From positions 1 to 46,729 of the IMG/VR virus record IMGVR_UViG_3300042555_003436: a DNA stretch of 46,729 nt. One strand, written 5' to 3'. The stretch is from a virus. Below the pieces are notes generated by a model. That model was not told the origin of the DNA. It saw only the letters and a list, made by a program, of their open reading frames with translations, and did no database searches. Position 1 is the first letter of the stretch. Each line of letters begins with the position of its first letter. A program made the translations under genes and the position numbers. This document shows positions 10,447-46,214 of the stretch, in pieces.

Positions 10447-10499
10447 AGGAATTGGGAAAATTATATAAAGAATAATATACTTGTATCGAGGTGAACAAA

Positions 10500-11462: not shown

Positions 11463-11524
11463 CTACGAGCAAAAAGCTAAAAAAAAGAAATGTCTTCAGC
11501 TCCTTTTATTACAAGAGGTGAAGC

Positions 11525-27790: not shown

Positions 27791-28369
27791 CTACAAGATA
27801 CGATCCGCTACACTATACATACCCAATAAATCAAAATTATGGGCTAATTTTACCATATTTTCTAGTTTTCTTGATGCCATTCCAGGCATCCCACCACCAG
27901 CTGCTCCAGCACCTTGCTCTTTTCCTTTATTTTTGGCAAAACCAAAAGATAAAAATTTCACGGCATTGGCAAAATCATCAAGAGTAATTTCAAGATCTAA
28001 TAAGTTTTGACCCTCAGGCAATCTTTCCCACCTAGTTTTATCAGTTCTCTTAATTTCTTCTTCGGTAGCTTCTTCGGTTTCTTTTCTCTTGCCTCTTTTT
28101 TCTTTATCAACACCACCGTCTTCGACTCCACCATATTGAATCCAAATATCGTTGGCAATTCCTTGTTCGTTATCTTCAAGTTGCTCTAATAATTTCTTTT
28201 CTATTTCAGCATCTGCCAATATTAGGCCTAAGTTTGCCAAAGGTACTAATATTTGTTTCTGACCTGAAGGAGGAGCAGTTGGTGCAACAGGCATAGCCAT
28301 AGGAGCTGCTGGCATAGCCATACCAGCTAATGGATCCATGGGCATTTGAGAAATTTTAATATATTTCAT
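27791..28369 (-). CDS. Putative virion protein carrying a split tag module
   Basis: The 192-residue protein starts MKYIKISQ and has a Pro/Ala/Met-rich stretch (about residues 9-40), then a charged helical region. It ends with LENMVKLAHNFDLLGMYSVADRIL. The two ends match the second and first halves of a module found intact at the N-terminus of the lysozyme-like protein (37226) and of the protein at 43383. Here the halves lie at opposite ends, as in a circular permutation. No enzyme domain is recognised. It follows the upstream gene by 3 bases and is followed by a terminator. Confidence 0.7.
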   Translation of the reverse strand: MKYIKISQMPMDPLAGMAMPAAPMAMPVAPTAPPSGQKQILVPLANLGLILADAEIEKKLLEQLEDNEQGIANDIWIQYGGVEDGGVDKEKRGKRKETEEATEEEIKRTDKTRWERLPEGQNLLDLEITLDDFANAVKFLSFGFAKNKGKEQGAGAAGGGMPGMASRKLENMVKLAHNFDLLGMYSVADRIL

Positions 28370-28372
28370 TTT

Positions 28373-28849
28373 TTATCTTATTGGGGCTGAAATAAAATCA
28401 GAGCGATGTCTGCCTCTACCAGGAGTGTCAAATGCTTCTGTAGTTTGTTGAGCATTCTCTAATTTTGTTTCTGATTCTGGTTCATCATCTTCTTCAAATG
28501 AAAATGTATCTTCAATAACATCTGGATTTAAGATATCCATTTGTCCCCAGTTTGGTTTTGTAGTGTTTGCAACTCTTCTTATAAGTTGGGAAGCTGAAAG
28601 ACCCCTTCCATCAAATATATCTTCTTCATCATTGTCCCAAGATGATAAAGTGGACATAGCAACAAGAATTGCGTCTGTCATTTGTGCTTCTATAACTCTA
28701 TTGTTTGTTTTTGCAAAACGTCTAGAATTGAATTTTTTAGAAATTGTAGCTGATGCCAATGCTATAATTTTAGCTTGTTCTTCATGTGAATGAACGTCAG
28801 GAGCAATATCTTCTAAAAGTGTATGTATCTGGGACTCTAAATTTTGCAT
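28373..28849 (-). CDS. Unknown acidic helical protein
   Basis: The 158-residue protein has a helical N-terminal half (residues about 1-70, with a DVHSHEEQAKIIALAS segment) and an acidic, probably disordered C-terminal half ending in a basic GRGRHRSDF stretch. The ribosome binding site is AAGAGAG, about 8 bases before the ATG. It lies between the 1941-residue tail-like protein and the tag-bearing protein, so a virion or assembly role is likely, but nothing specific can be claimed. Confidence 0.65.
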   Translation of the reverse strand: MQNLESQIHTLLEDIAPDVHSHEEQAKIIALASATISKKFNSRRFAKTNNRVIEAQMTDAILVAMSTLSSWDNDEEDIFDGRGLSASQLIRRVANTTKPNWGQMDILNPDVIEDTFSFEEDDEPESETKLENAQQTTEAFDTPGRGRHRSDFISAPIR

Positions 28850-28912
28850 ATTTTATCTCTCTTGATAAATTCTTATTACTATATTTTTAAATTGTAGCGG
28901 GTTATACCTTTA

Positions 28913-31900
28913 CTAATCTTTTGCTATTAAGTATTCTACTTTGAATTTCATGTTTCTTACTTGCCCGTTTAAAGTAATATTGTTTGCTGAAAGAGCTGTT
29001 GTACTTGGAGTTTTTATTGCAATTCCAAAACTTTTGCTCTTTGCAGTTTGATCAATTCCCAAAGTTGCTCCACCAAGATATACAGCATTATCATATCCTG
29101 AAGTCAGTGGTTGCCAAGTTTCAGGAGATGAATTATATAATTGGAAATTAGCAGTATCAATCCAATCAATATTGTCTGTACCTAAGTTATAAGCAGTTGT
29201 TTGAGTGTTTGTAATTGTACTAGGAATTGGTAATTTTATTCTGAAATTTTTGTCAGCATTTGTTGTTCCATATCCGACTTGTATAGACAATTGAGGCAAC
29301 AATTCTGCACTATTGTCTAAGTCAGTAGCTCTAGTCCAAATGTTAGATGAGCCTATCGATGAAACTACGTAAACACCATTTGTTGTTTTATTAGTTTGAT
29401 CTTTTACCAAAATTCTGTCATATTTTTGCAAAATAACTTCGTCTACTTTGCTTGGAGGATTTGTCAATGAAATCTCCGATGTTGTTGCTACTTTTGCATT
29501 TGTTAGATATGAATTGGTATTTACTTTTACCCAATATAAATTTGTAGAATCCATAGTAGGAGTTCCGCTTTCATTGTACACAAGCGCATAAGTTCCTGTC
29601 GTAGCATTTCCACTTGATACAATTACTCTTTTATTAATTGATATTTCAGATGAATTATCCAAAAGCTCATGTCTATTCAAATAGTTTGTCACAACTTCAT
29701 CAATGACATAAATTCCATTTTGCAAATTATCACTTTGATTTTTTACTAACAATCTATCTCCCTTTTGTGAATTAGGGATATTAAGATTGGAATTCAATGT
29801 CAAGTTTGATGTGCTAGCAAATGAACAAGCTGTGAAATTACTAATTAGTCCTTGCTGGAACCACTGTATATTGTCAGAGCCTACAGATGTATTTGAGGGA
29901 TTATAATAAAGTTCGTAGTTGATATTTCTATTTGAATCATTTACGTACAAACTTGCAATTTGAAATTCTGTTGTTGAAGTTCCATTGCCAACTCTTATCA
30001 AATTAGGCTCAGTTTTTTTGTTAATTCTTGCTACAATATTTTCAGAGCTAGTTGTTTGATTGATGAACAATACTTTGTCATTTTGTAAAGTTGACACTCC
30101 ATTGATTACATCTGGCAATGCTTGTAAATTAGCAAAGTTTGTATGGCCCAATCCGGCTACATCAATTACATGTTCAGCCCCTACACTTCGCCAGAACAAT
30201 GGTGTGTTTAATGCTGAGGCACCAAGGTTATAAGCAGTTGAGTCTTCGGGAAGATTTAATTCGTATGTCCTGTTGTTGTATACCACTCTTCCAAGCGCAT
30301 ATAATTCATTAGTGGCATCCAAGTCTGCCGTTCTTGATAACACAAACTTGTTGTTAAGAACGGCTGTGTATATTCCATTTTTTGTACTATCAGATTGAAA
30401 TTTGATTGCAACTTTATCGCCAACTTGTATATTGTAGCCATCTATCATAGCTGTAGCACCAGACCCAGACGGAGCTCCCATAGGACCAATTACAGGGATA
30501 TATGTAATATCATTGAAATTTGGAATATTGCCAGTATTTCCTACTGCAGCTGCAAAAGTAGTCCTAGTGCTTACATCAATCCAAGATCTAGCTGAAGTAT
30601 TTATATTTGTGCTTAAAGGATCAAAATACAAACAGAATGTTCCGAATCCAGCTGAATTTGAAAGCCTTACTGTGGTTGGATAAAGTGAAGATCCAAAAGC
30701 TGAACTATAAGCCATTGTTACTTCTTGTATTTCTGATCTCTTAAAGGTGTAAAGTTTTTGATCACGCTTACCAGCTTTGTTATGTGTGACTAATCTATTG
30801 ATATCATCGTAATATGTTGTAGTTAAAGTTGAATCAATGGTGGCATCTGAATAATCTGATGTAGTTTTATTTTTCAAAACTAATACATTTGTGTTTGCAG
30901 AAAGTCCTAGTCCAGAATACCAGGATGTTAATGCAATTCCAGATGGTTGATAAGCTTTTTCTAGATAAACATCACCAGTAAAAAGCCCAATTGAATTCAA
31001 AGTTACAGGATCTGTAAAATTACCACTAAATGTAGAGCTATTTCCTAGTCCAGTTTGAATATAATATCCGTCTTGTGATAGCCTACTCGTCAAGAAATAA
31101 TCAGTGACAGATTCATTTTCAACAATAATATTAGCATTGGATGCATAATTATTGCTTGAGTTGAATGAAGAAATCCAAGAACTTCTATCTCTGTTGTATT
31201 TGACTTCTGAAGTTGTGGCTGTTCCAATAATATTTACAATTTGGAAGTTTTGTGAATCAACATTCCAAGATCCTGATAATTTTGGATTAGGTGAAAGCAA
31301 GAATAATTTATCACGTAATACTTGAGGAATGTAATAATATCTATTTAATGTTTGTTTTGGATTTTCGTCATATTTTGGAACAGTTGAATCTTTGTAAAGA
31401 TAGGCATACAATGTACCTGTCCAGCTTGAACCTGAAGTATTTAAGATCCCATTTTTTGCATCTACGGTGAAATCAGTGCTATAAGTCTTTGAAATTACAG
31501 TTCCACCAGTTGAAACAACAAAGACATCTATTAAGGCATCTGGATAATTAGATGTAGACCATGTGTAAACATCACTAGTTGATTCTGGTCTTGCAAGATA
31601 AATTGTATTTCCAAATGAAGATGAGTGTCTTACTAAATTTTTGGCATGATCAAGATGGCCATTTATTGAATTGTATTTTATTTTTCTTAAGTAATAATTG
31701 AAGTTTGCGTCAATACTTACAATTTGATAAATTCCACTTGTTGATTTTCGTACAGTGGAGTTATATTCATCCTCACTGCTGACATAATAAAATACTCTGT
31801 CATTGATTTCATATGGATACTGTATTGAGTCGCCACTTATATTGCTATAAAGTTGCACACCATTTCTTCTGACAAGTAAGATATCTGAAGTTACTGAATC

Positions 31901-34738
31901 TAAAGTAACATCTGCAGCAAGAATATGTTGTATCGGCGCTAATCTTGGGAAATTCGCTACATCTAATTGATTGGCATTTAGTCTAATTTCTGAACCTTGA
32001 TAAAAAACTTCACTTCCGGTATGTAAATATTTGTCTAAATCAGATGTGGCATAATCGCTTCCAAAAGTACCCTGCCTAATTCCAACTTCTGATTGCATGT
32101 AAACTTTGTCATAAGAAAAAGTTGTGCCAACTCCCATATAGCCATAATCAATTTTGACCAAAGTAGGCCTTTCATATGGAGATGCTAATGATTTTTGATC
32201 TGTTCCAAGGGTAAACTTAGAATTATAATAAAAATCTTCGTGTGGTGTAAAATATACGCTTCCAATGCCAGTAAATGTTGGCCTGTAAATTCCATTAGAG
32301 ATACTTGATGATGAATATCCAGTGCCGACAAAAACAATTACGCTATCATTTACATCAAGTAAAGTAACTCCGCTGCCACTAGAGCTTCTTATCAAGCTCG
32401 AAATTGCAGTTCCTGATGTTGTAGGTATGCTGGTCGAAGAATTGACCATAAATACTGCTTTGACATTATACTTTTGATAATCTTGCTCATACCAATCAAA
32501 ATCTAATTCTTGAAGAATTGAACTACCTTTGCCTTCGGTGCTAAAGTAGTTTTCATAATTTTGAAATGATGGGAAAAGAATTTCAGGAACAAATATTTCG
32601 CCATAATGTGTTGAAGCAATGGACGCTATTTGCATAATTCCTGATATTTGTTTTTTTAAATTTGGTGATACTGCATAAGTACCATTGTTGTTGTTAGACA
32701 AGATATTTGTAAAAATATTTTGAGTCCACGATGATAAACTATTATCATATTTGAAAACTTGTTTAGTTGAAGCTCCAATTGCTGTTACTGAATAAACTCC
32801 ATTTACCAACTCGTTACTTGTATTTACAAGAACAGATGTACCAATTGCAACAGGAACATCAAAATTTGTTGGCGATAAATAAGTAGAATCAAATTTATCT
32901 ACAGTTGTTGAAGCAGTCACAAATAAATTATTTTGATTTGTGATATTGACCCAAGTAACACCTATTGAACCTGCTGCAGTTTGAGTTCCAGGGGCATACA
33001 AGAAATAAGTAGTACCAGCCCCTGTAGTACCGTTTGTTATTGTGGTAATACTTCCACGTAAAACTGAATAATCAGTTGAAAATTCAAGTCCAAGTACAGT
33101 ATCACAAACTGAAGCAACTCTATAAATTCCATTCTGTGATGGATATGCCGTTTGACCTGATACCAGTACTCTTTGTGATATTGCTATTCCTGAATTTACA
33201 AAATCAACTTGGCTTACATTTGTTAAGTCAGTTTGATTTGTAATAATCAAATTAGTTACAGGTTCATAGGTATAAGGATAAAATCTTTCTTGAATATTAA
33301 TTCCATCAAAATTAAGCTTAAACGTTGAGTTGTAAGTTGTAGATTTACCCAAGAACCAAACATTTCCGCCAAGACTATTTTTAGAATTCACTGCATAAAC
33401 TATATTTTGATTTATTTCAGATGGTTCATTAAAATCAGAAGCTCTTACCCACAATCCAGTACTTCCAAAACCTACATTTGAAACTGTGTAAATTCCGCTG
33501 TAATTATTGTTGTAATGCTTGACAAGTATTCTGTTTGATGTAGATAATGTTGTTGCAACACCTGAGTAATTTGTAATCGTTCTAGGTGTGCTAGTTAGTG
33601 TTCCGGTGTTTGATCCGAAATCAAAGCTGAAGCCTATTGCACTTCCAGTTGTAACTTCATAATAATAATCAACATTAGAATGACCATAATTATATGTAGC
33701 ATCTGTCCATTTCATAGACGCTGTTGAAGCTATTCCACCTGTAAGACCAATAGCTGAATAGTATCTAAAATAACCTCCACTTTTTGCAACACCAGCATTA
33801 ACAAATTGAACGTTTACTGGCAAATTTGCATTAATATAATTTATTGCAGTTTTCCAAAAATCATCAGCTGTTTCAGTGCTAGTGTATGGATCTATAAGTG
33901 AAGAAGAATTTGGTTTTGTTAAACTTGAAACGTAATAAATACCGTTTTGTGATTTTGTGGTTTGATCTTTGACGAGTACTCTATTATTTAAAGATAAAGT
34001 AAAATTGTCTAAAACCAAAGATGAATTTGTTAATCCAGTAGATGATTGCTGTAAATTTGAGGTCGTAGCACAATTTACAGCAGCTAATGCATATCTGTTT
34101 GTTCTGTCAACCCAAATAAAGGAAGTTGAACCTGCAGATGCTGTTTCAAAAGGATTTAAGTATGGACTGTAAAGATAATATGAAGATGTTCCTACTCCTA
34201 CGATCTTTGCTGCTGTAAGTACATCTTCTGCTACTATTGCCCCTACAGTCCCACTACCGACTTGTGAAGATACTCTGTAAAGTCCATTTTGAAATGCTGA
34301 TGATTGAGATCTTACAAGAACTACTTTTGAACTGTCTAATTTAACTCCATCAATATATGTAGAAGCAAATAGTACACTTGTTCCACCAATTGTTGCTGAA
34401 GATAAATTAGACACTGTTCCAACGTCAGCATTTAGTTTATTGATTATGAATGAATCAAATAGTGTAAATCTTATATCAAAACCTAGATCTTGAAGTAATT
34501 TAATATTATCAGTATTTTTAACTACTGGATAATGCTGGTTAGTATAAATGTCCGCAAACTCATTGTCAATCCAAAGTCTGATGTCATCAACATTTGTGTT
34601 TATCCATTTTAATCTGAATAATTTTTTATTCCAAGTGCCAGATATGTTAGTACCAAATCCAGCACTTGAAATTTCTCTATAAATTTCAGATTGTGAATTA
34701 TCAGCGTTTACTTCAGACCAAATGAAAGCGTGGGACAT
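28913..34738 (-). CDS. Giant 1941-residue tail-repeat protein
   Basis: This beta-rich virion protein consists largely of about twelve diverged copies of a tail repeat whose core is V-L-V-K-x-Q-T-x4-NG-x-Y-x-V followed by W-x-R-x-x-D. Clear copies lie near residues 115-170, 220-275, 380-445, 1635-1695 and 1745-1815. Two related copies occur in the 2857-residue protein. Between copies are sandwich modules also shared with that protein (VYTWSTSNYPDALIDVFVV near the middle). Residues 1-100 form a distinct N-terminal region and the last 70 a distinct C-terminal one. Repeat proteins of this type are phage tail or baseplate components. Its stop is followed by an A/T-rich gap of 63 bases; it starts 14 bases after phoH. 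Confidence 0.85.
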   Translation of the reverse strand: MSHAFIWSEVNADNSQSEIYREISSAGFGTNISGTWNKKLFRLKWINTNVDDIRLWIDNEFADIYTNQHYPVVKNTDNIKLLQDLGFDIRFTLFDSFIINKLNADVGTVSNLSSATIGGTSVLFASTYIDGVKLDSSKVVLVRSQSSAFQNGLYRVSSQVGSGTVGAIVAEDVLTAAKIVGVGTSSYYLYSPYLNPFETASAGSTSFIWVDRTNRYALAAVNCATTSNLQQSSTGLTNSSLVLDNFTLSLNNRVLVKDQTTKSQNGIYYVSSLTKPNSSSLIDPYTSTETADDFWKTAINYINANLPVNVQFVNAGVAKSGGYFRYYSAIGLTGGIASTASMKWTDATYNYGHSNVDYYYEVTTGSAIGFSFDFGSNTGTLTSTPRTITNYSGVATTLSTSNRILVKHYNNNYSGIYTVSNVGFGSTGLWVRASDFNEPSEINQNIVYAVNSKNSLGGNVWFLGKSTTYNSTFKLNFDGINIQERFYPYTYEPVTNLIITNQTDLTNVSQVDFVNSGIAISQRVLVSGQTAYPSQNGIYRVASVCDTVLGLEFSTDYSVLRGSITTITNGTTGAGTTYFLYAPGTQTAAGSIGVTWVNITNQNNLFVTASTTVDKFDSTYLSPTNFDVPVAIGTSVLVNTSNELVNGVYSVTAIGASTKQVFKYDNSLSSWTQNIFTNILSNNNNGTYAVSPNLKKQISGIMQIASIASTHYGEIFVPEILFPSFQNYENYFSTEGKGSSILQELDFDWYEQDYQKYNVKAVFMVNSSTSIPTTSGTAISSLIRSSSGSGVTLLDVNDSVIVFVGTGYSSSSISNGIYRPTFTGIGSVYFTPHEDFYYNSKFTLGTDQKSLASPYERPTLVKIDYGYMGVGTTFSYDKVYMQSEVGIRQGTFGSDYATSDLDKYLHTGSEVFYQGSEIRLNANQLDVANFPRLAPIQHILAADVTLDSVTSDILLVRRNGVQLYSNISGDSIQYPYEINDRVFYYVSSEDEYNSTVRKSTSGIYQIVSIDANFNYYLRKIKYNSINGHLDHAKNLVRHSSSFGNTIYLARPESTSDVYTWSTSNYPDALIDVFVVSTGGTVISKTYSTDFTVDAKNGILNTSGSSWTGTLYAYLYKDSTVPKYDENPKQTLNRYYYIPQVLRDKLFLLSPNPKLSGSWNVDSQNFQIVNIIGTATTSEVKYNRDRSSWISSFNSSNNYASNANIIVENESVTDYFLTSRLSQDGYYIQTGLGNSSTFSGNFTDPVTLNSIGLFTGDVYLEKAYQPSGIALTSWYSGLGLSANTNVLVLKNKTTSDYSDATIDSTLTTTYYDDINRLVTHNKAGKRDQKLYTFKRSEIQEVTMAYSSAFGSSLYPTTVRLSNSAGFGTFCLYFDPLSTNINTSARSWIDVSTRTTFAAAVGNTGNIPNFNDITYIPVIGPMGAPSGSGATAMIDGYNIQVGDKVAIKFQSDSTKNGIYTAVLNNKFVLSRTADLDATNELYALGRVVYNNRTYELNLPEDSTAYNLGASALNTPLFWRSVGAEHVIDVAGLGHTNFANLQALPDVINGVSTLQNDKVLFINQTTSSENIVARINKKTEPNLIRVGNGTSTTEFQIASLYVNDSNRNINYELYYNPSNTSVGSDNIQWFQQGLISNFTACSFASTSNLTLNSNLNIPNSQKGDRLLVKNQSDNLQNGIYVIDEVVTNYLNRHELLDNSSEISINKRVIVSSGNATTGTYALVYNESGTPTMDSTNLYWVKVNTNSYLTNAKVATTSEISLTNPPSKVDEVILQKYDRILVKDQTNKTTNGVYVVSSIGSSNIWTRATDLDNSAELLPQLSIQVGYGTTNADKNFRIKLPIPSTITNTQTTAYNLGTDNIDWIDTANFQLYNSSPETWQPLTSGYDNAVYLGGATLGIDQTAKSKSFGIAIKTPSTTALSANNITLNGQVRNMKFKVEYLIAKD

Positions 34739-34752
34739 TTATACTACCAATA

Positions 34753-36120: not shown

Positions 36121-36195
36121 ATTATTGGTCTCCTCGCATTTTTGTTGATTTTGTAATCACAATGTTGTTTTCTTTTTTATGCTGATTCAGCCCTA

Positions 36196-37185: not shown

Positions 37186-37225
37186 ATACCTTTTATAAAG
37201 GATTTAGTAATTTGGAGATTTATTG
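37186..37225. promoter_or_regulatory. Divergent promoter gap
   Basis: Only 40 bases separate the J-domain gene (-) and the lysozyme-like gene (+). The gap contains CCTTTTATAAAGG, a palindrome with a TATAAA on both strands, and the ribosome binding site GGAG for the plus gene. It must hold promoters or be crossed by transcripts on both strands. Confidence 0.35.
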
Positions 37226-38179
37226 ATGAAATATCTTACGTTGGCAAAACTAGCTAATAAACTTGATAAGCTTGGTTCTTATTCAAAAGCAGATGAAATT
37301 ACAAATACCCTTATAAAAATATCTCAAAAAGAATTACCTTTTGACATAACTGAAGGAGAAACATATAACGATCCTGACACAGTTATGAAATACTTTACAG
37401 GTTTTGCTTTTGACATGTATACAAAGAATAAAAACATTTCAAAAAAACGAATTGAGATGGAAGTTAAGAAAAAACTTCAAGACAAAATACAAGACATGAA
37501 ACTTGAAGATAAGGAAAAATATAAAAATTTTGATTTAGAAGTTATGAAAAATCTAGAAAATCAATCATGGTACAAAGATTTAAATGAAACTCAAGATTTT
37601 GAAATGCAAGATGAATCTGTTAAATTTGATCCAAATAGTAGTGGTTTCAAGAATGCAATCAAATATATCCTAAATGTTGAAGGCGGATACAGTGACTATA
37701 ATTCAAGCACTGGAGATCCAAGAACAAACTTAGGAATAATCCAAAGTGAGTATGACGAGTACAGATCTGATAAAGGTTTGGAAAAACAAAGCGTTCGTAA
37801 TATTACCGTAGATGAAGCTAAAGAGATATACTTTGATAATTATTGGGTGCCAACAAAAAGTGAAACTATTTATAAAAGTTTCCCAAAAACTGCTATTGCG
37901 ATCTTTGATTTTGCTGTAAATTCAGGATTATCTGGCGCTTCATCATTGGTTGCTAAAACACTAGATATTCAAAATACAAGATTTGACAATAATATGGTCA
38001 ATCAGATAATGATGGCAGCTGGAACAATTGGTGATTCTCAGTTAGTTAGCAACTTAATTCAAAAAAGACGTATCAATTATCAAGATATTATCAAGAGAAA
38101 ACCACAAAAATCAGTTTATGGCCCAGGTTGGCAGAATAGAATGAATAAATTAGAAAATTTTACTGAAGACGACAAATAA
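37226..38179 (+). CDS. Tagged GH108-type lysozyme (muramidase)
   Basis: The 317-residue protein starts with the shared tag module: residues 1-34 have LAKLANKLDKLGSYSKAD and IKISQ (30-34). A charged helical linker follows, and then a C-terminal domain (about 137-310) resembling glycoside hydrolase family 108: VEGGYSD with likely catalytic E152, GDPRTNLGI, EIYFDNYWVP, IFDFAVNSGL and a final GPGWQNRM. GH108 enzymes cut peptidoglycan glycan strands. The tag in place of a signal peptide suggests a virion-borne lysozyme used at entry rather than a secreted endolysin; this is inference. ATG 37226 is chosen (GGAG 8 bases upstream) over TTG 37223. Confidence 0.85.
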   Translation: MKYLTLAKLANKLDKLGSYSKADEITNTLIKISQKELPFDITEGETYNDPDTVMKYFTGFAFDMYTKNKNISKKRIEMEVKKKLQDKIQDMKLEDKEKYKNFDLEVMKNLENQSWYKDLNETQDFEMQDESVKFDPNSSGFKNAIKYILNVEGGYSDYNSSTGDPRTNLGIIQSEYDEYRSDKGLEKQSVRNITVDEAKEIYFDNYWVPTKSETIYKSFPKTAIAIFDFAVNSGLSGASSLVAKTLDIQNTRFDNNMVNQIMMAAGTIGDSQLVSNLIQKRRINYQDIIKRKPQKSVYGPGWQNRMNKLENFTEDDK

Positions 38180-38180
38180 C

Positions 38181-38678
38181 ATGTGGTATAAATTTGCTAA
38201 GAAATATAACATGTTTGGATTGCCAATTTCTGGTGACTTAAAATTTAATTTATTTGCTGATGAAGATGCAGATGAATCAACTGTAGAAGAAACACCTTTG
38301 GAAATTCCTGACACTGAGCTTCCAGAAGAAAGAGATGAACAATTAGGTGAGAATGAAGGCCCACCAAATCCTCTTGAAATTACAGTAGAAGATCCTTCTG
38401 GTGATGATAATTTTACAACAGAAGACTTGCAAGAAAATGTTGAAAAAATAGAAAACGATCCTACAGCAATGATACAATTGCCACCATTACATGATCGTTG
38501 CCATTGTAGAATTGAAACTTTCCCAATTTTATCTATTCCTGGCGTAAGAGATGGTAAAAGAGTTTGGCAGAAGTCTGAAAATTGTTGCCCAAAATGCTAT
38601 GAAACAGCTGTAAAATTCAATGAAGCTGAAGTGCAGAGATTACTAAATAAAGGAATTGATCTTAATAGAATATCCTGA
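38181..38678 (+). CDS. Acidic protein with Mu F-like CxC motif
   Basis: The 165-residue protein has a short hydrophobic/basic start (MWYKFAKKYNMFGLPISG), a long acidic, probably disordered middle (about 25-95), then LPPLHDRCHCRIE (H104, C107, C109). This resembles the P-x-x-H-x-x-C-x-C motif at the C-terminus of phage Mu gpF/SPP1 gp7-type head proteins. A second Cys group (C135, C136, C139) may complete a zinc site. It lacks the usual N-terminal region of those proteins, so it could be a reduced relative or a coincidence of motif. It follows the lysozyme by one base. Its 3' end overlaps the convergent gene by 36 bases. Confidence 0.65.
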   Translation: MWYKFAKKYNMFGLPISGDLKFNLFADEDADESTVEETPLEIPDTELPEERDEQLGENEGPPNPLEITVEDPSGDDNFTTEDLQENVEKIENDPTAMIQLPPLHDRCHCRIETFPILSIPGVRDGKRVWQKSENCCPKCYETAVKFNEAEVQRLLNKGIDLNRIS

Positions 38679-39814: not shown

Positions 39815-39817
39815 TCA

Positions 39818-40081
39818 TTATTTTTTGCCAAATAAATGATAAACAGCTTCATTGACGATTGGCTGTAAGCTCATTCCTTTTGAATATAATCTCACGTTGG
39901 CAATAGAACCATAGCTTTCATCCAAATACTTAAACAATCTTCTTAACTTTCTATCAACTTCGATTTCAGAAGGATTGTAATTTTTTTGAAGAGCACAAAG
40001 TCTTCTGATAGCATTTTCGCCATCAATTTTAATGATCTTCATCTCGTAAGTTGGTTGTTGCGGATCTGGTTCAGTACTCAT
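39818..40081 (-). CDS. Small unknown protein
   Basis: The 87-residue protein has a central helical, basic region (EIEVDRKLRRLFKYLDESYG). It starts 2 bases after the upstream stop and ends in a double stop (TAATGA) leading into the next gene. No domain is recognised; the context is an operon of unknown genes driven from the divergent region at 40318-40401. Confidence 0.6.
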   Translation of the reverse strand: MSTEPDPQQPTYEMKIIKIDGENAIRRLCALQKNYNPSEIEVDRKLRRLFKYLDESYGSIANVRLYSKGMSLQPIVNEAVYHLFGKK

Positions 40082-40083
40082 AA

Positions 40084-40317
40084 TTATTTACTTATATCTA
40101 AATTTTGTACGTGAATTTCGTTATATGCAAAAGCAACATTTTGGCTTGGGACATTGAATAAACATATCACCATCTTCTCATCTTTGAATATAGTGTAAAA
40201 ATCTTTATTCACTAAAAGAACACCCTCAATTGGTCCTATAAGTGCTGATGGATTGTAGGTTTGAATTTTCCATTTTCCATTACCCCTATTTTGTGAATTA
40301 TTATCAACTGTTGCCAT
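40084..40317 (-). CDS. Small unknown protein, first of the minus-strand run
   Basis: The 77-residue protein is beta-rich (KWKIQTYNPSALIGPIEGVL, EKMVICLFNVP) with a polar N-terminus. A strong GGAGGA ribosome binding site lies 7 bases upstream of its ATG. It heads a four-gene minus-strand operon divergent from the ClpX-like gene. No function is recognised. Confidence 0.65.
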   Translation of the reverse strand: MATVDNNSQNRGNGKWKIQTYNPSALIGPIEGVLLVNKDFYTIFKDEKMVICLFNVPSQNVAFAYNEIHVQNLDISK

Positions 40318-40401
40318 ATTTTTTCCTCCAAAACGAATATATTATTATTTGTAGACTCACTTATATCCTACCTATATGTATAATATTTAGGAGGGAAACA
40401 T
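40318..40401. promoter_or_regulatory. Divergent promoter region
   Basis: The 84-base A/T-rich gap holds ribosome binding sites for both flanking genes (GGAGGA on the minus strand, AGGAGG at 40389-40394 on the plus). It also has TATAAT at 40379-40384 (+) and a TATATT-type box on the minus strand. The plus TATAAT is too close to the ribosome binding site to be the only -10; TTATAT and CTATAT copies further upstream are alternatives. Confidence 0.5.
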
Positions 40402-41754
40402 ATGGGTAATAAGACATTAGTTCACGCTTGTAATTTTTGCGATAGACCGGCCACCAAAGATGTATTAGGCGAATTAGAAATATTTGAGTACAAAATTGCA
40501 AAAATTTATCTTTGTGATCAATGTTTCAAGAGCTACAAAACTGGAAATAAATTTGGACAGCTTCAAATTCATCAAAACATCATGTCATTGATAATCAATG
40601 CTGAAGATGATGCTCCTATTCTTAGTTTGAAAGAAAAGTTAGCTGAAGTAGCTCCACTATCTAAAAAGTTCTTATTTGAAAGAAGACAGAATATTTTTAA
40701 GAAAGTTACTCCACAAGATCTTTATGAAAATTTAGACAAAAAAGTTGTTGGGCAAGATAACGCAAAGAAGCGAATTAGTATAGCTGTGTTTGAACATATG
40801 AGAAATATCATGCATACTAGACTAAATGATAAGCAAAATATTTTGTTTCTTGGTCCTTCTGGTAGTGGAAAAACTTTGATTGTTAATACAATTTCTAAGT
40901 TTTTAGATGTGCCTTATGTTTCCGGAGATGCAACATCTTTTTCTCCAACAGGCTTTCAAGGATCTGATTCAGACTCTGTAATTACTGATTTATTGATAAA
41001 AGCAAATGGTGAACCTGGCCTTGCGGAAAAAGGTGTCGTTTTCATTGATGAAATTGATAAGCTTGCTTCCAATATGAGTTCAGCAACAAGATTAGAAAGC
41101 TTTCATTATTCAACACAAAGCACTCTTTTGAAGTTGATAGAAGGCAAAAAAATAAAGGTAAATTCGTCTGCTTTAGGAGAACAAGGCTCTCCTCCAGTAG
41201 TAGTCGATACATCTAGTATTTTATTTTGTTTTGGAGGCGCTTTTAACGGGCTGGAAAAGATTGTTGCTAAGAAGCTAGGTCTCACTGAAGGATCTATAGG
41301 ATTCAGAAATACAAAAAGTGCTGATTATGAGACTCAAATAAAAAATTATGAAATTTATGAAAAAGCTTCACACGAAATTTTGAGTGAAAGTTTGATTGAA
41401 TATGGCATGTCTACAGAGTTCGTTGGCCGAATTCAGAGCATAGTTCCTTTGGTTCCTTTATCAAAAGAACAAATGCTATATTGCTTGTTGCAACTTGAAG
41501 ACTCTCCAATAATTAAGAATCAAATTATGTTTGCTGAATCTAATGTTGAATTGATGTTCGATGAAGAATATTATGATGAAGTAGTTGAAAAAGCCATCAA
41601 GTCTGGCACTGGAACTAGAGCGTTAAATTCTATAGTAAAGGCTTCATTATCAAGTGCAGCATTTGATTTATTGGGATTACAACACAGCCAAGTAAAAAAG
41701 GTTTCTATATCTAAAGGTTGTGTATCAAATCCAAAATTATACACACTTGAATAA
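40402..41754 (+). CDS. clpX: ClpX-like AAA+ unfoldase
   Basis: The 450-residue protein has the ClpX layout. An N-terminal four-Cys zinc finger (C10, C13, C38, C41) is followed by an AAA+ module with Walker A GPSGSGKT (151-158), Walker B VVFIDEIDKL (216-219 DEID) and a sensor-2 region GTGTRAL. The substrate pore loop GYVG is replaced by GFQG (184-187). GSIGF at 298-301 keeps the IGF tripeptide that docks ClpX onto ClpP, so it may recruit host ClpP; no ClpP is in the window. ClpX unfolds tagged proteins and also remodels complexes such as Mu transpososomes. It has a strong ribosome binding site and its own promoter region. Confidence 0.95.
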   Translation: MGNKTLVHACNFCDRPATKDVLGELEIFEYKIAKIYLCDQCFKSYKTGNKFGQLQIHQNIMSLIINAEDDAPILSLKEKLAEVAPLSKKFLFERRQNIFKKVTPQDLYENLDKKVVGQDNAKKRISIAVFEHMRNIMHTRLNDKQNILFLGPSGSGKTLIVNTISKFLDVPYVSGDATSFSPTGFQGSDSDSVITDLLIKANGEPGLAEKGVVFIDEIDKLASNMSSATRLESFHYSTQSTLLKLIEGKKIKVNSSALGEQGSPPVVVDTSSILFCFGGAFNGLEKIVAKKLGLTEGSIGFRNTKSADYETQIKNYEIYEKASHEILSESLIEYGMSTEFVGRIQSIVPLVPLSKEQMLYCLLQLEDSPIIKNQIMFAESNVELMFDEEYYDEVVEKAIKSGTGTRALNSIVKASLSSAAFDLLGLQHSQVKKVSISKGCVSNPKLYTLE

Positions 41755-41789
41755 AGGTTGTCTATTTTGACATCTAGTAATTTAATAAC

Positions 41790-42725
41790 ATGGAAAATCA
41801 TGAAATTATTAAGCTTGCAGTAAGGTTAACAGAAGAGAATAATTATGTTTGCAAAATTGCTGCAATCAATCAAGCTTTTATGATTAAAGCAAAAGATAAG
41901 CTAGGTACAATCGATACTTTCATTACTGTGAGAGGTATTGAGACAGCAGATCAGTGGAAATTAGCATTTACAACTGCAGGATTCTCTGATGTAATTGTCT
42001 CCCCTTTTAGAGGAAGTGGCAATCTGTCTATGAAAGATGTAAATAGTGATTTATTTGACGCAGTTTCTGAACGTGCAAAATGGAGATTTGAGACAAAACC
42101 TGAAGGTTACAATACTCCTTTCACATCTTATAATCCATATGCTGGGAAAGATACTGAATTTGATTCATCTGACCCTAGATTAAGTAAAACTGTTTCCGTT
42201 GATGACACTAATGAATATCAGAAATATTTATTTGAAAAATATTTTAAAAAAGAAAAAGACAGAATTTTTTCAGGTTGGTTTGATGGAAGTTTGGTAGATT
42301 GGTTGTCTAAAATTGCTAGTATTGATACAGAAGTAAATGAAATATTAAGTAAAAAAACTTTTGCATATTTGTATTCTTCTCCCAAGATTATTCAATTTAT
42401 GTATGACATGAGTGTTCACAATCCAGAATTTGATCCGAAAACTTTTGAACCAAGCAAAGTCCAAATAAAAAATCTTATAATAAAAATGTATCCTTTAATA
42501 AATATTTTAGTTTCGTCTGATGTTGATGCTGATGAATTTCCAGAAAATTTAATTTACCCTCAACTTGATATGATTGTTCAAAAAGCAAGAAATCATAAAT
42601 TTTTCAAACAATATGAACAAAAAGACTTAAACGAAATGCAACAATCTGAAATTAATCAGCAATTTGAAAAAGATAAAGCAACATACCAAAAAATAAAGAG
42701 ATTCTTGAGAGGTCTTTCAGCATGA
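41790..42725 (+). CDS. Unknown protein of the tagged-protein cluster
   Basis: The 311-residue protein has an alpha/beta N-terminal part (residues about 1-75, with LGTIDTFITVRGIETADQW) and a helical remainder with a charged C-terminus. The first residues, IIKLAVRLTEENNYVCKIA, weakly resemble the shared tag module. No ribosome binding site is visible; a TAATTT box ends 6 bases before the ATG. Its stop overlaps the next start (ATGA). No enzyme motif is seen; a virion role is inferred from neighbours only. Confidence 0.65.
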   Translation: MENHEIIKLAVRLTEENNYVCKIAAINQAFMIKAKDKLGTIDTFITVRGIETADQWKLAFTTAGFSDVIVSPFRGSGNLSMKDVNSDLFDAVSERAKWRFETKPEGYNTPFTSYNPYAGKDTEFDSSDPRLSKTVSVDDTNEYQKYLFEKYFKKEKDRIFSGWFDGSLVDWLSKIASIDTEVNEILSKKTFAYLYSSPKIIQFMYDMSVHNPEFDPKTFEPSKVQIKNLIIKMYPLINILVSSDVDADEFPENLIYPQLDMIVQKARNHKFFKQYEQKDLNEMQQSEINQQFEKDKATYQKIKRFLRGLSA

Positions 42726-43402
42726 GTAAATTTAGAAAAATTGCAGCGATTCCCGCCAAGCTACCAGGCAATGCTGGCATGGCAGGTTTGTTTAGTCAGT
42801 TTATGGATGCTAAAGATATGGATGAATTCTTAAATAAAAAGAACATCTCGAGAAACTTACAATTTATAGCAGCTTTATTTCCTGGTTTTACAGACAGATA
42901 TTCTCCATCAGCTTTTTACCATGCTTTAGAATATGATAAAGACAGAGGCTACAATAATACCTCTCACTCACAAGGCGCACATGAACTTTTAGATCCAAAA
43001 ATTATGGAGGAAGTGAAAAAGTTTAAGAAGAATCCTCCAAAAGACCTTAAGGATGTAGACGGAAAACCAATAAAAAGTTTGGAAAATATAAATTTACCAG
43101 AGACATCAGGAAGATATAAAGCCATGGAAGAACAATTGTATCCAGAAGAAAAGAAAGAAGCTCAAAATACTAATTCTAAATTTGTAAAAACTTCTCAAGT
43201 ATCAAAAGCTAAAGAATTAGAAAGAATCGTTCCAAAGTGGACTATTGAAGATGTTATTAAAGACATGGCAAGAGTTGCAAAAAGATCAGATCTTTCACAA
43301 GTAGACAAACAACAAACAATGATTAACATATTATCAAATTATGAAAAATTGATAGCTCCGTTGAGTAATTTTCTAAATAAAAATGGCATACAATATAAAT
43401 AA
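42722..43402 (+). CDS. Putative virion protein with internal KTSQ motif
   Basis: The 226-residue protein begins MSKFRKIAAIPAKLPG and contains FVKTSQ at 154-159, matching the motif that ends the tag module in other proteins here. After it comes a helical C-terminal region. Translation is supported by GAGAGG 9 bases before the ATG and overlap with both neighbours (4 bases upstream, 20 bases downstream). If the motif is a cleavage site, the protein would split into parts of about 159 and 67 residues. No known domain is recognised. Confidence 0.65.
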   Translation: MSKFRKIAAIPAKLPGNAGMAGLFSQFMDAKDMDEFLNKKNISRNLQFIAALFPGFTDRYSPSAFYHALEYDKDRGYNNTSHSQGAHELLDPKIMEEVKKFKKNPPKDLKDVDGKPIKSLENINLPETSGRYKAMEEQLYPEEKKEAQNTNSKFVKTSQVSKAKELERIVPKWTIEDVIKDMARVAKRSDLSQVDKQQTMINILSNYEKLIAPLSNFLNKNGIQYK

Positions 43403-44144
43403 ATTATTTGAAATTGCAAAGTTATTAGATACAAAGGGTAAGTACTCTTTATCTGATAAAGTTGATAATTTCATTAAGACTTCTCAAAGTTTACTTCCAA
43501 CTTTGCCAAGTGAATATCAGCCTACATCATCGCCTGTAACTGGAAATCCATTTATTGACTCAATGTTTCAAAACATGAGCGATACAGCAGCTGGATCACA
43601 ATTTGCTGGAGGTGGAATGTATGATCGTTTTTCACCTTACAAATCCAAAATGGGTCCAAATGCTCCAGGTATATTGCCTACAATTACTCCTGCTCAATTA
43701 GCTGAATTATCAAAAACTGAAAAAGGCAGAGAGTATCTTGCACAAATGCAACTTAGAGGTGGTTTAAAAGCCACAAATTATGAAAATTTATCAAATGCAG
43801 GTATGACAAGTTTTGCAAAGCTTGTAGACCAGTTCTTGAATCCTGGAGTTGCCAAAGAAGTTCAGCAATCATTTTTGAATGATACTTTCCCAGGCGCATT
43901 AACTGGCCAATTATCTAATATTTTGACAAGATTTCCAATTAATGAATGGCTTATGAGATTAAACCCATTTTATAACCTTGCTTCAAAATATCCTCAACAT
44001 TCAGCAAAAATTACACAGAGTATAAATACTGCTGCAAAATCTGCAATAGAAAATTTAAGATATCACGATCCAGTTCAATACGAAAAAATTATTAAAGATC
44101 CTAAATTCAAGCCATTTCAAGCAAAATTTAATTTCAATATTTAG
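43383..44144 (+). CDS. Tagged putative virion protein
   Basis: The 253-residue protein carries the clearest tag module: residues 7-35 with LFEIAKLLDTKGKYSLSD and IKTSQ at 31-35. The rest is Pro/Gly/Met-containing and helical, with no recognisable enzyme motif. Its ATG lies inside the previous gene, giving a 20-base overlap in another frame. It ends 18 bases before the macro-domain gene. Its module aligns with that of the GH108 protein at Leu, Ala, Leu-Asp, Gly, Tyr-Ser, Asp and Ile-Lys-x-Ser-Gln positions. Confidence 0.7.
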   Translation: MAYNINKLFEIAKLLDTKGKYSLSDKVDNFIKTSQSLLPTLPSEYQPTSSPVTGNPFIDSMFQNMSDTAAGSQFAGGGMYDRFSPYKSKMGPNAPGILPTITPAQLAELSKTEKGREYLAQMQLRGGLKATNYENLSNAGMTSFAKLVDQFLNPGVAKEVQQSFLNDTFPGALTGQLSNILTRFPINEWLMRLNPFYNLASKYPQHSAKITQSINTAAKSAIENLRYHDPVQYEKIIKDPKFKPFQAKFNFNI

Positions 44145-44150
44145 ATTCTG

Positions 44151-44156
44151 TACAAA
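44151..44156 (+). promoter_or_regulatory. Candidate -10 box for the macro-domain gene
   Basis: TACAAA, preceded by TG, ends 6 bases before ATG 44163, which has no Shine-Dalgarno. It matches the arrangement before dnaK (TGTACAAT). Confidence 0.25.
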
Positions 44157-44162
44157 ATTTAT

Positions 44163-44906
44163 ATGTCAGAATTATGTCCAGTTTATTTATCATCTGGTGA
44201 TTGTTTAGTAAAAGTATTATCAAACCCAAGATTATCTTCATTTATCGCTAAAATTCAGCTTGATGTTGTAATAGAATCTTGGGGTAAAGATTGTCAAGGC
44301 AATCGTAATTTATGCACTTTTAAACATCAAATTGAAGAACAATCCTCCCCAGAACCAGAACCAACTCCAGAACCAATAATTGATAATAAAACAAAAATTA
44401 GTATTCATAAGATAGAAAATCCTTATCTTGTCAAGGCTGATGTTTTAGTTTACCCTACTAATATTGGTCTTACTATTGATGATCCTTTACTCAATAAAAT
44501 GTCTCGTGGTGTTGTTCAAAATGAGCTTGACAGATTTCAAAAACCTATTAATATGGGAACTGTTTACATTACTTCAAACGGTGGTGAAAATTCTAAAGTC
44601 AAATCTAGAAAAATTTATCACGCTACAGTGTCTGGAGAAAGTAGGCTTGTAAATGAAGTGGATCTCAAATCTGCAATGAGAAAAGCTTTGTTTTTAGCAG
44701 ATGAAGAACAAGCCAGAAATGTACTTTTCATACCTGCTGATTGTGGCACTCACGATATCAATGATGCTGCTAGAGTTCAATTAGCTGCTATCAAGACCTA
44801 TTTACAATCAGCCAAAGAATCAAATATTAAGAATATTTTCATCGTAATGGAAGACGAGGAGAGTTATCAAGTCTTTGAAGAATATTATAATAGAATCTTT
44901 CTTTGA
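44163..44906 (+). CDS. Macro-domain protein with Cys-rich N-terminus
   Basis: The 247-residue protein has a C-terminal macro-like domain (about residues 77-245): KISIHKIENPYLVKADVLV, YPTNIGLTIDDPLLN where macro domains have the VNAAN loop, a glycine-containing ITSNGGENSK strand, RKIYHATV, and NVLFIPADCGTHDIN where they have the FPAIGTG loop. Macro domains bind or hydrolyse ADP-ribose. The N-terminal part has C5-x8-C14, C44, and C51-x3-H55, resembling a CCCH zinc finger with a long internal loop. A Pro/Glu linker (about 61-72) joins the parts. The diverged loops leave binding or catalytic activity uncertain. It could counter ADP-ribose-based host defence, as inference only. Confidence 0.6.
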   Translation: MSELCPVYLSSGDCLVKVLSNPRLSSFIAKIQLDVVIESWGKDCQGNRNLCTFKHQIEEQSSPEPEPTPEPIIDNKTKISIHKIENPYLVKADVLVYPTNIGLTIDDPLLNKMSRGVVQNELDRFQKPINMGTVYITSNGGENSKVKSRKIYHATVSGESRLVNEVDLKSAMRKALFLADEEQARNVLFIPADCGTHDINDAARVQLAAIKTYLQSAKESNIKNIFIVMEDEESYQVFEEYYNRIFL

Positions 44907-44917
44907 GGCATAATTGA

Positions 44918-45244
44918 ATGGAACAAAATATAGAATGCAACAACTCATCAAATTTAATTTGTGGTCTTCTTGATACCTTTAGTTGTGCAGCTTATATTTT
45001 AGATGACAATAAAAACCTGATAATGAATGACAAAGCACGAGAACTTTTTATGAAAGGTCTTGACATAAAAAATTATCTATCAGCATCATATATACAATTT
45101 AGAGATCAAAGATACAGTTTGAAACAAAAAGATATAAATCACGGCACAAAAAGCAAATTATTTATTCTTGAAACTGTTGATGACACTATTGTAAAACTTT
45201 CAGAATCCTCAAAGAAATTACGACAAGTTCTCTCTGCTCTTTAA
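44918..45244 (+). CDS. Small PAS-like domain protein
   Basis: The 108-residue protein resembles a single minimal PAS domain: LLDTFSCAAYILDDNKNLIMNDKARELF matches the beta-beta-helix start of PAS sensors, followed by YIQFRDQRYSLKQKDIN, SKLFILETVDDT and a C-terminal helix. No output domain is attached. A GAGG ribosome binding site lies 9 bases before the ATG, and it sits 11 bases after the macro-domain gene, 12 bases before the coiled-coil membrane protein. The PAS call is by pattern; a bound ligand cannot be inferred. Confidence 0.55.
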   Translation: MEQNIECNNSSNLICGLLDTFSCAAYILDDNKNLIMNDKARELFMKGLDIKNYLSASYIQFRDQRYSLKQKDINHGTKSKLFILETVDDTIVKLSESSKKLRQVLSAL

Positions 45245-45256
45245 TTGGAGGATACA

Positions 45257-45712
45257 ATGCAAGATAACGAAGTCGGATTAGAACAACTTAAGAGCGTTTA
45301 TAAAGCACAGACAGAGGCATATTTAGATTTTAATATGGCCCTCATCAATATTCTTACAAATCAAAAAGAAATATTAGCTCGTGTAGAATCTTTAAAATTA
45401 TTATCCGAAGATGAATTTAAAAAACTTTCTAAAGATTATGCAGTTTTAGAAAGATTATTTGAAAATTTCCAAACAGCACAAGTTAAAAGAGATTCTGACA
45501 TTGAAGAAGCAACTCTTGAATACACTGCGCAAATTTCTGATTTTGGTTCTGATATCTCTGAAGTCAAAGAAGATATCAAGAGTATGAAGAAAATCTATTG
45601 GGATGTAAAAAACACAATAAACAGAATTATGTGGACAATTGGTGGAGTTATTGCTTTCTTAACTGTGCTTCAATTATTTACTGGCAAAACTGTATCGGAT
45701 TTTGTAAAGTAA
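45257..45712 (+). CDS. Coiled-coil protein with C-terminal membrane anchor
   Basis: The 151-residue protein is a long helical, coiled-coil-like region (about 1-115) followed by one membrane segment (about 125-142, MWTIGGVIAFLTVLQL) and a short polar tail. This resembles XhlA-type haemolysin/holin-associated proteins and similar tail-anchored phage proteins, so a lysis role is possible but unproven. ATG 45257 is chosen (GGAGG 45247-45251) over an upstream TTG at 45245. Its TAA overlaps the next ATG by one base. Confidence 0.65.
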   Translation: MQDNEVGLEQLKSVYKAQTEAYLDFNMALINILTNQKEILARVESLKLLSEDEFKKLSKDYAVLERLFENFQTAQVKRDSDIEEATLEYTAQISDFGSDISEVKEDIKSMKKIYWDVKNTINRIMWTIGGVIAFLTVLQLFTGKTVSDFVK

Positions 45713-45942
45713 TGCCAACTGTAGCTTGTTATTGTGAAAAATGTGGGCAAAGTTTTTTCTTAAAAGATGAATTATATTTGCCTGGTTTGAAAAATAGATT
45801 TCAATTTACCCGCCCAGAAAAGAAAGAATTAAAAACCTGGGATGATTATGTAATGCATATTTCTACAAATTGTGAAGATTGCAGAATAAAAGAAGTGCCT
45901 GAATCTTGCTTAGAAGATTACAAAAAACATAAATATCATTAA
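45712..45942 (+). CDS. Small zinc-binding protein
   Basis: The 76-residue protein has CxxC pairs at Cys8/Cys11 and Cys54/Cys57, plus Cys6, which should form one zinc site. The start is ATG 45712, overlapping the previous stop (TAATG); a longer frame from 45598 runs through the coiled-coil gene and is rejected. It converges with the minus-strand gene, overlapping by 4 bases. Function unknown. Confidence 0.65.
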   Translation: MPTVACYCEKCGQSFFLKDELYLPGLKNRFQFTRPEKKELKTWDDYVMHISTNCEDCRIKEVPESCLEDYKKHKYH

Positions 45943-46214
45943 GCTGATTTAATTATCCCATTTATGCTATTCACTATATCATTAATACTTTGTGGGGATA
46001 AATTATTTCCGACAAATTTTAGGTTGTTATCAAGGTTTAAATGATACAAAACACCACCTATAATATCGTCCATTTCTGAAATAATATCAGCATTAGAAAA
46101 AATTACATCTGGGCTAGCCTGTGTCTTCATAGCGTCAGCAAGATTTGTGGCTTCCTCTTCAAAGCCATTTTGTTCCAATTCTTGCACTAATTGAGCTAAT
46201 TTGATATAATTCAT
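45939..46214 (-). CDS. Small tagged protein
   Basis: The 91-residue protein is almost entirely the tag module plus a short helical tail: residues 1-32 have YIKLAQLVQELEQNGF, then EATNLADAMKTQ, a degenerate form of the L-x-x-L-x-x-x-G-x-x-x-x-A module ending in KTQ. The start overlaps the upstream stop (TAATG). Being so short, it could be a scaffold, adaptor or decoy carrying the tag. No other domain is seen. Confidence 0.65.
   Translation of the reverse strand: MNYIKLAQLVQELEQNGFEEEATNLADAMKTQASPDVIFSNADIISEMDDIIGGVLYHLNLDNNLKFVGNNLSPQSINDIVNSINGIIKSA

Follow-up and report, generated by a model that had tools for sequence, protein, structure and literature searches.

In bacteriophage T4, the capsid-targeting sequences of internal proteins are cut off by the head protease at a motif that other head proteins also carry. 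These sequences are N-terminal propeptides of 10 to 20 residues that ensure incorporation into the prohead, and T4-type proteases cleave after glutamate (excerpts of PMC5694885). In the giant phages SPN3US, phiKZ, and 201phi2-1, the same excerpts describe N-terminal propeptides of head and ejection proteins that the prohead protease cleaves off, two diverged paralogues with an identical 15-residue start, and, for SPN3US, cleavage that follows AxE (PMC5694885). In P1, the first 30 residues of DarB, a member of a virion-carried antirestriction system, suffice to send a reporter to the capsid (excerpt of PMC9024508). Among polyvalent proteins, ART, ArdC, and metallopeptidase domains are described as packaged with or delivered beside the DNA (excerpt of PMC5512222), and ART and GNAT occur in injected members (excerpt of PMC7824862). 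Here we analyze IMG/VR record IMGVR_UViG_3300042555_003436, a viral DNA of 46,729 bp (the window, meaning this whole stretch), for which an earlier note, made from the sequence alone, had described a module of about 30 residues at the N-termini of a GH108-type lysozyme and of the protein encoded from position 43383, and had taken it for a sorting or processing signal analogous to the T4 sequences.

Our results demonstrate that this module belongs to a system of two protein tags, a long helical hairpin and a short tag beginning MWY, in a broad group of large tailed phages; the system is real, widespread, and, as far as our searches go, undescribed. Computation revealed the tags, their placement on many proteins, their swapping on orthologues, and an enrichment of hydrophobic-[KR]-x-A in untagged head-cluster proteins. 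Because two interchangeable tags share a common end and an end-like motif occurs in untagged head-cluster proteins, we consider capsid targeting with processing most likely: the tags would be capsid-targeting propeptides, probably removed by a head maturation protease, a reading to which we assign a probability of roughly 0.6. The proposal of the earlier note is thus retained as the best-supported reading, on the strength of the tag swap and the head motif, with cleavage and presence in virions as its conjectural parts.

The long tag is a helical hairpin of about 30 residues with the consensus L..LA..LD..G...EAD.ID..I, followed by K-x-[AS], for about 33 residues overall. The DNA pattern of LDxxGxYxEAD picked out 44 stretches of viral DNA; about a dozen protein families among them were judged true and the rest chance, and copies in those families were N-terminal, internal, or C-terminal. 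An iterated profile found 167 copies in 152 open reading frames (ORFs) of 23 contigs, equal to 147 tagged genes once overlaps are removed, since some ORFs are one gene in two overlapping tiles. Across the genome and its relatives, the observation is therefore larger than was first reported. No reversed or shuffled ORF matched the profile. With the module masked, the ORFs fall into 120 blastp groups, i.e., about 120 unrelated protein groups, in agreement with the earlier statement that no common fold follows the module. This is an N-terminal element common to several otherwise unrelated proteins, as in the T4 type, with internal and C-terminal exceptions: 133 copies are N-terminal (although 17 of these begin beyond residue 60 of the longest reading frame), 22 are internal, 11 are C-terminal, and 1 makes up nearly the whole protein. 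The strictly N-terminal placement assumed at first is thus given up. The third copy in the window (in 27791-28369) is C-terminal. Tandem copies also exist.

The hairpin was modeled by AlphaFold2 in the lysozyme as helices at residues 2 to 16 and 20 to 37, confidently over residues 1 to 30 (mean predicted local distance difference test scores of 88, 96, and 93, and of 70 for residues 31 to 40); the full model is poor (mean, 68.5). No PDB fold matched the muramidase model at E ≤ 0.001, the best Foldseek match of the whole model being Sen1395 at E 0.14, with TPR-domain entries appearing only from E of about 1 upward, and no TPR family is among the Pfam matches of 109 tagged proteins. No Pfam, PHROGs, or NCBIfam model matches more than 2 of these 109, and those 2 are related GH108 muramidases.

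Several searches define how far the long tag extends. A strict DNA pattern of the module matched 28 stretches in viral contigs and none in genome contigs, the latter scan having had no positive control. By tblastn, a method weak for a 33-residue query, the consensus had a single chance-level match (E 10) in 50,697 phage records and none in 72,556 plasmids, and the lysozyme module had none. The long-tag profile matched none of six named phages (T4, phiKZ, G, SPN3US, P1, and 201phi2-1; the short tag was not searched there) and, at E ≤ 0.01, none of Tunturi_5, LR745208, and Rctr197k, whose portal is like that of this group. As a control, 12 of 26 contigs chosen by chance matches to the first pattern passed E ≤ 1e-3, with a maximum of 17.0 bits and always via an 11- to 15-residue seed, so that small contigs chosen in this way need a stricter limit than E 1e-3 alone. 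Among the literature matches listed for MWYK/MWYR or for shared N-terminal or packaging signals of huge or jumbo phages, judged by titles and the openings of abstracts, the tags are not described.

The short tag, MWY[KR]x[AS](Q), in which Q often comes next, was noticed on comparing orthologues. Genes starting with MWY, for the most part as MWY[KR]x[AS], number 9 in G005, 9 in G009 (the 379-kb relative of the window phage), 8 in G017, 6 in G019, and 2 in G015, with a single one each in G001 (the 121-kb record that covers most of the window; gene at window 38181), G004, and G013, against an expectation of no more than 0.24 in any genome. G031 has one LWY start, which looks like chance, and no such gene is present in the remaining 14 contigs. 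A scan with MWY[KR][LF]AQ gave 37 stretches, and the fetched loci hold 116 unique MWY-start ORFs, with L (34), F (19), I (14), and T (10) at position 5. Among the 83 that lie outside the scan pattern, some of which are clearly chance (e.g., MWYIFPL), 61 have K/R at position 4, 59 have A/S at position 6, 53 have both, and 16 have Q at position 7. Of 24 contigs picked by the short tag alone, which are partly related and so not 24 independent trials, 17 carry the long module (E ≤ 1e-3), all above the control maximum of 17.0 bits. In the 358-kb relative, G060, we counted 20 copies of the long tag, 3 at C-termini, and 15 proteins starting with MWY, 12 of which fit MWY[KR]x[AS]; the gene total is 408, which also takes in 20 kb of another contig. 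In G060, five MWY genes are followed in consecutive order by two long-tagged genes.

The tags replace one another on homologous proteins, as seen in three families, with the boundary exactly at AQ in two (marked by a slash). One family begins MWYR[KFL]AQ/DMSVP in three contigs and has a full hairpin ending [FI]AQ/DMS[IV]P in two (for example, MWYRKAQ/DMSVPFYRYP versus MYTSLL...KFAQ/DMSIPFYRYP). GH108 muramidases begin MWYRTVIAQ/[IM]SDVD in two contigs and have a hairpin ending AQ/ISDVD in two (for example, MWYRTVIAQ/ISDVD versus ...LIKQAQ/ISDVD). In the third family, a free-standing protein begins MWYRFAMIRTANEYW (MWYRFAM) in one contig, and its homologue in G009 lies behind an internal hairpin within an 855-residue fused protein; internal tags may therefore mark fused cargoes. 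A homologue in a second contig was found for 53 long-tagged proteins, of which 41 have at least one that is tagged and 26 at least one that is untagged, although some of these "untagged" homologues bear the short tag or a degenerate module (e.g., the G009 homologue of 27791).

Tags are thus gained and lost between orthologues, and runs of adjoining tagged genes occur. Both features would suit a recombination-prone 5' gene end that is spread by shuffling and has no tag function, but we regard this as very improbable, since residues hold while codons vary, one end is common to two unrelated tags, and a similar motif recurs in untagged head proteins. The tags are selected as protein, the residues K/R, A, and Y being encoded by several codons. 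The same variation among synonymous codons speaks against a translation-start or expression leader working via RNA, which the mostly N-terminal position of the copies would fit; with internal and C-terminal copies present, and no element seen upstream of MWY genes except a purine-rich stretch at the expected ribosome site, this is the explanation to which we give the least credence.

The end shared by both tags is [KR]x[AS], with Q frequent only in some lineages. Behind the core of N-terminal long tags, and under a counting rule that admitted a few tile duplicates and the C-terminal window copy, [KR]x[AS] follows in 50/59 copies from contigs with the short tag and 72/100 from the others (background, 19% and 22%), and [KR]x[AS]Q in 22/59 and 7/100 (background, 0.8% and 0.6%). 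SQ, the end expected from the window proteins, therefore does not generalize to the wider family. Three residues past the core, [AS] is found in 65/116 clearly N-terminal copies, 5/22 internal copies, and 5/9 C-terminal copies that are long enough. The N-terminus of the trypsin-like protease encoded in the window has [KR]x[AS]Q in 8/8 sequences (the window's and seven others 41 to 87% identical to it), with flanks that vary among the eight.

A related motif is enriched in the head genes of the relatives. Positions 42 to 60 kb of G060 encode portal, terminase, and a 1,379-residue protein with a match to the head maturation protease PHROG (E 3.7e-20; its best match, at E 5.2e-28, is a family of unknown function). 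The 13 untagged head genes of G060 contain [hydrophobic][KR][ILTFV]A 26 times versus 4.1 expected, compared with 23 versus 15.5 in 80 other untagged genes taken as a sample, and the head clusters of G009, G013, and G004 have 19 versus 5.8, 22 versus 4.1, and 22 versus 6.8; the looser, tag-derived [hydrophobic][KR]x[AS] is less enriched (59 versus 31.2 in G060). In a scan of 2,401 four-position classes over 61 untagged head-cluster genes of four relatives, which preselected no motif, hydrophobic-[KRH]-[ST]-A came top (60 versus 11.0; ranks by genome of 1, 2, 1, and 3), whereas in a sample of 200 other genes it ranked 397 (27 versus 21.4). Between orthologues, the core of the head sites has an identity of 0.57 and the flanks 0.38. 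A tagged gene lies within about 2 kb upstream of the terminase in six of the nine contigs with a terminase match among 32 searched (G007, G026, G027, G029, G035, and G037), of which G026, G035, and G037 seem to be near copies of each other in this region.

The tags might instead serve for docking or assembly and stay uncleaved: the hairpin, like the aromatic short tag, would bind a common phage partner, and tagged proteins would so gather on a scaffold, a condensate, or the head surface with no proteolysis. The confidently predicted hairpin, the tandem, internal, and C-terminal copies, and an end motif that is not strict all suit such a domain. We nevertheless hold it to be unlikely, given that in two families a short tag with the same end takes the place of the entire hairpin up to the AQ boundary, that the protease N-terminus retains [KR]x[AS]Q while its flanks change, and that untagged head-cluster proteins are enriched in a similar motif.

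For the capsid-targeting reading, the mechanism that we propose is that a tag would bind a head or scaffold component during head assembly, that the tagged protein would thereby be enclosed in the prohead, and that the head maturation protease, which is encoded in the head cluster of the relatives, would cut at [hydrophobic][KR]x[AS](Q). The freed cargo (muramidases and ADP-ribosyltransferase-like, GNAT, pyrophosphatase-fold, ArdC-like, and unknown proteins) would then enter the host with the DNA. Cutting by one of the phage proteases, as the earlier note supposed, still seems likeliest, with the probable enzyme now placed outside the window. Its head maturation protease region has blastp homologues in 10/23 contigs, including G007, G029, and G035, where the window trypsin-like protease (present in 7/28 records searched) was not found, and it therefore appears the likelier cutter of the two. 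Blastp revealed no homologue of this region in the 121-kb record covering the window, and neither protease was found in the heavily tagged 223-kb G020, although many of the records are fragments.

The tagged proteins include muramidases and carry domains that injected phage proteins are known to contain. The 109 long-tagged proteins match 17 Pfam families, including GH108 (2 proteins), LysM, cell wall hydrolase, ArdC-N, ferritin-like, DnaJ, poly(A)/CCA nucleotidyltransferase, and PcfJ; PHROG matches include DarB-like antirestriction and minor head proteins, ART-PolyVal, InPase, and GNAT domains also occur, and Nudix-like, P-loop kinase-like, and more ADP-ribosyltransferase-like proteins were recognized by eye. 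Phage polyvalent proteins are deemed likely to be packaged in the capsid (PMC5512222), and ART, GNAT, peptidase, and related domains are placed in phage-packaged or -injected proteins (PMC5512222, PMC7824862). A localization signal directing proteins elsewhere in the infected cell, for example to a phage nucleus or replication site, would be in keeping with large genomes that have gyrase and chaperone genes (by eye) and with the many cargoes of unknown function. It is quite improbable in view of what is tagged: the gyrase, helicase, DnaK, ClpX-like, and PhoH-like proteins of the window (by eye) are untagged by the profile whereas the muramidase is tagged, and the 17 Pfam families include no gyrase, helicase, replicative polymerase, or tail protein, with only one nucleotidyltransferase, of the poly(A)/CCA type.

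A number of observations weigh against capsid targeting with processing. Internal and C-terminal copies fit no simple leader, Q is not general at the tag end, and tagged nucleotidyltransferase and DnaJ proteins are untypical of injected proteins. The head protease region has no detected homologue in 13/23 contigs, including G020, most records being fragments. As to the head motif, [hydrophobic][KR][ILTFV]A was first noticed by eye and fixed after viewing the G060 head proteins, the cluster limits were set by us around portal, protease, and terminase homologues, and the excess is weaker in G029 (10 versus 3.2), G025 (13 versus 6.5), G035 (7 versus 3.7), and G007 (5 versus 3.0). Looser motifs are also raised in some samples from the rest of the genome (99 versus 73.2 in G029 and 143 versus 118.6 in G009). 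The four genomes of the class scan have homologous head proteins and are not independent; its top class carries S/T before A, a minority state in short tags, and hydrophobic-[KRH]-hydrophobic-A, which is nearer the tags, ranks 13 (53 versus 26.1) and only 382 in G004 alone. Aligned head sites are kept in 40/66 cases, little better than control tetrads (72/138). The major capsid protein was not identified, and no match was obtained to PF07068 (T4-type major capsid) or to S77 and S78 proteases, the control genomes being likewise unmatched for PF07068 and S77. No cultured member of this phage group was found.

We regard as evenly balanced the stronger claim that a two-form address code, ending in a head-maturation cleavage motif, loads several tens of different effectors into each head, amounting to some 8 to 9% of the genes called in one 358-kb genome, and that the injected set can thus be read from sequence alone. 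Purified virions, the usual source of knowledge on injected proteins, are not available for huge phages that have not been cultured. If the tags have the role proposed here, metagenomes could supply lists of tagged proteins as candidates for injection, among them muramidases, ADP-ribosyltransferase-like, GNAT, and ArdC-like proteins, and dozens of families of unknown function. The cleavage site could then be predicted, and the tags could be tried as short handles with which to load proteins into phage heads.

Within the window (Table 1), the module spans residues 2 to 35 of the lysozyme (GH108 match, E 2.3e-16) and 3 to 35 of the 43383 protein. A profile built from other contigs, without window members, finds both (E 5.8e-9 and 9e-7 in the 94 genes of the 122 kb known), and the first observation is thereby confirmed. 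The third copy, in 27791-28369, which the earlier note had not described, scores E 3.3e-4 with this profile (domain E 0.003 with a two-sequence profile), recurs in the 358-kb relative, and is degenerate in the 379-kb relative. A recoded TAG stop at the end of 27791 (residues after the stop, KIAKF) was considered and rejected: this TAG looks like a normal stop, TAG terminates 17 of the 84 genes of at least 100 amino acids, and read-through would be 15 residues or fewer in 13 of the 17. The degenerate copy claimed for 45939 is weak by itself (E 4.5 with the two-sequence and 0.011 with the other-contig profile) and gains support from its orthologue in the 358-kb relative (53% identity), which starts alike, and from a clear module on the gene at the corresponding place in the 379-kb relative. 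The (I/V)K(I/T)SQ motif is present where it had been reported in the trypsin-like protease, which is not a hit of the other-contig profile (E 2.7), and in the 42722 protein. It exceeds background, with 5 occurrences in the 94 genes versus 0.17 expected from shuffles (0/300 shuffles reach 5) and 4 versus 0.01 within the first 40 residues, figures that are flattered because the motif was picked after the fact.

Table 1. Tag copies and related N-terminal or internal segments in the window.
Feature	Position	Strand	Host protein and basis
Long tag, helical hairpin ending IKISQ	37226..37327	+	N-terminus of GH108 muramidase 37223-38179; profile and AlphaFold2
Long tag ending IKTSQ	43383..43487	+	N-terminus of protein 43383-44144; orthologue in 358-kb relative ends IKVSQ
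Long-tag copy	27794..27874	-	Extreme C-terminus of 27791-28369 (residues ~166-192); profile
N-terminal MKYIKISQ	28346..28369	-	27791-28369; orthologues begin MKKTILSQ and VGKFVRKAQ, each then M
Degenerate long tag	46113..46214	-	N-terminus of 45939-46214; profile E 0.011; orthologue; gene in corresponding place
N-terminal segment ending LIKTSQ	11980..12033	+	Trypsin-like protease 11980-12654; [KR]x[AS]Q in 8/8 sequences
Short tag MWYKFAK	38181..38201	+	N-terminus of 38181-38678; orthologues begin MWYRQAK and VWYRDFKTRLAQ
Possible short N-terminal tag MSKFRKIA	42722..42745	+	42722-43402; by eye
Internal VKTSQ	43184..43198	+	Residues 155-159 of 42722-43402; motif scan

The 121,334-bp record G001 covers window positions 1 to 45784 at 99.998% identity. 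G060 (358,269 bp) has, in inverted order, orthologues for most of the genes tried within 10.5 to 46.5 kb of the window, the lysozyme and 41790 being without one, and 55 of the 91 genes called in G001 are common to G009 (378,848 bp). From this gene sharing, the window phage is probably a member of a lineage whose genomes exceed 350 kb. The genes that flank the lysozyme are direct neighbors in G060, with no lysozyme between them, and the lysozyme therefore looks like mobile cargo; its homologue in the 379-kb relative sits at another locus. No other close kin of the lysozyme or the 43383 protein was found, the related-locus search returning only the near-identical 121-kb record. In the window, adjoining subtilisin-like, signal-peptidase-like (both named by eye), and trypsin-like genes (10491-12654) keep their order in relatives, and a macro-domain protein (44163-44906; Pfam E 8e-5) is kept in both large relatives; G001:1-22000 holds a long series of genes that by eye resemble enzymes for sugars and nucleotide sugars. 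Terminase, portal, and head protease genes are present in the relatives. The C-terminus of the portal in the 358-kb relative (L295:10118-12499; residues ~706-777) matches the restriction-endonuclease-like families MTES_1575 and DUF559, and that of the 1,379-residue protein (L295:5855-9994) has two CxxC pairs and is zinc-ribbon-like by eye. Insertions of several hundred residues relative to homologues, possibly inteins, occur in G009 114897-117500 (terminase), G004 4416-9839 (head protease), and G009 219827-222913.

Compared with the described systems, the tags differ from each in a particular way. The polyvalent proteins of phages and conjugative elements are large and multidomain, whereas here a tag is mostly followed by one such domain on its own, and no shared targeting tag is described for them in the excerpts of PMC5512222 and PMC7824862. 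The DarB signal is described in its excerpt for one protein, and P1 has no match to the long tag. In SPN3US, phiKZ, and 201phi2-1, likewise without a long-tag match, the shared start is found on paralogues, whereas here it is found on about 120 unrelated groups. The T4 capsid-targeting sequences are alike by role, as short N-terminal propeptides on internal proteins. T4 itself lacks a long-tag match, however, and the end here is [KR]x[AS](Q) rather than glutamate, with two tag forms, one of them a helical hairpin, as many as 35 tagged genes in a single genome, and internal and C-terminal copies beside the N-terminal ones.

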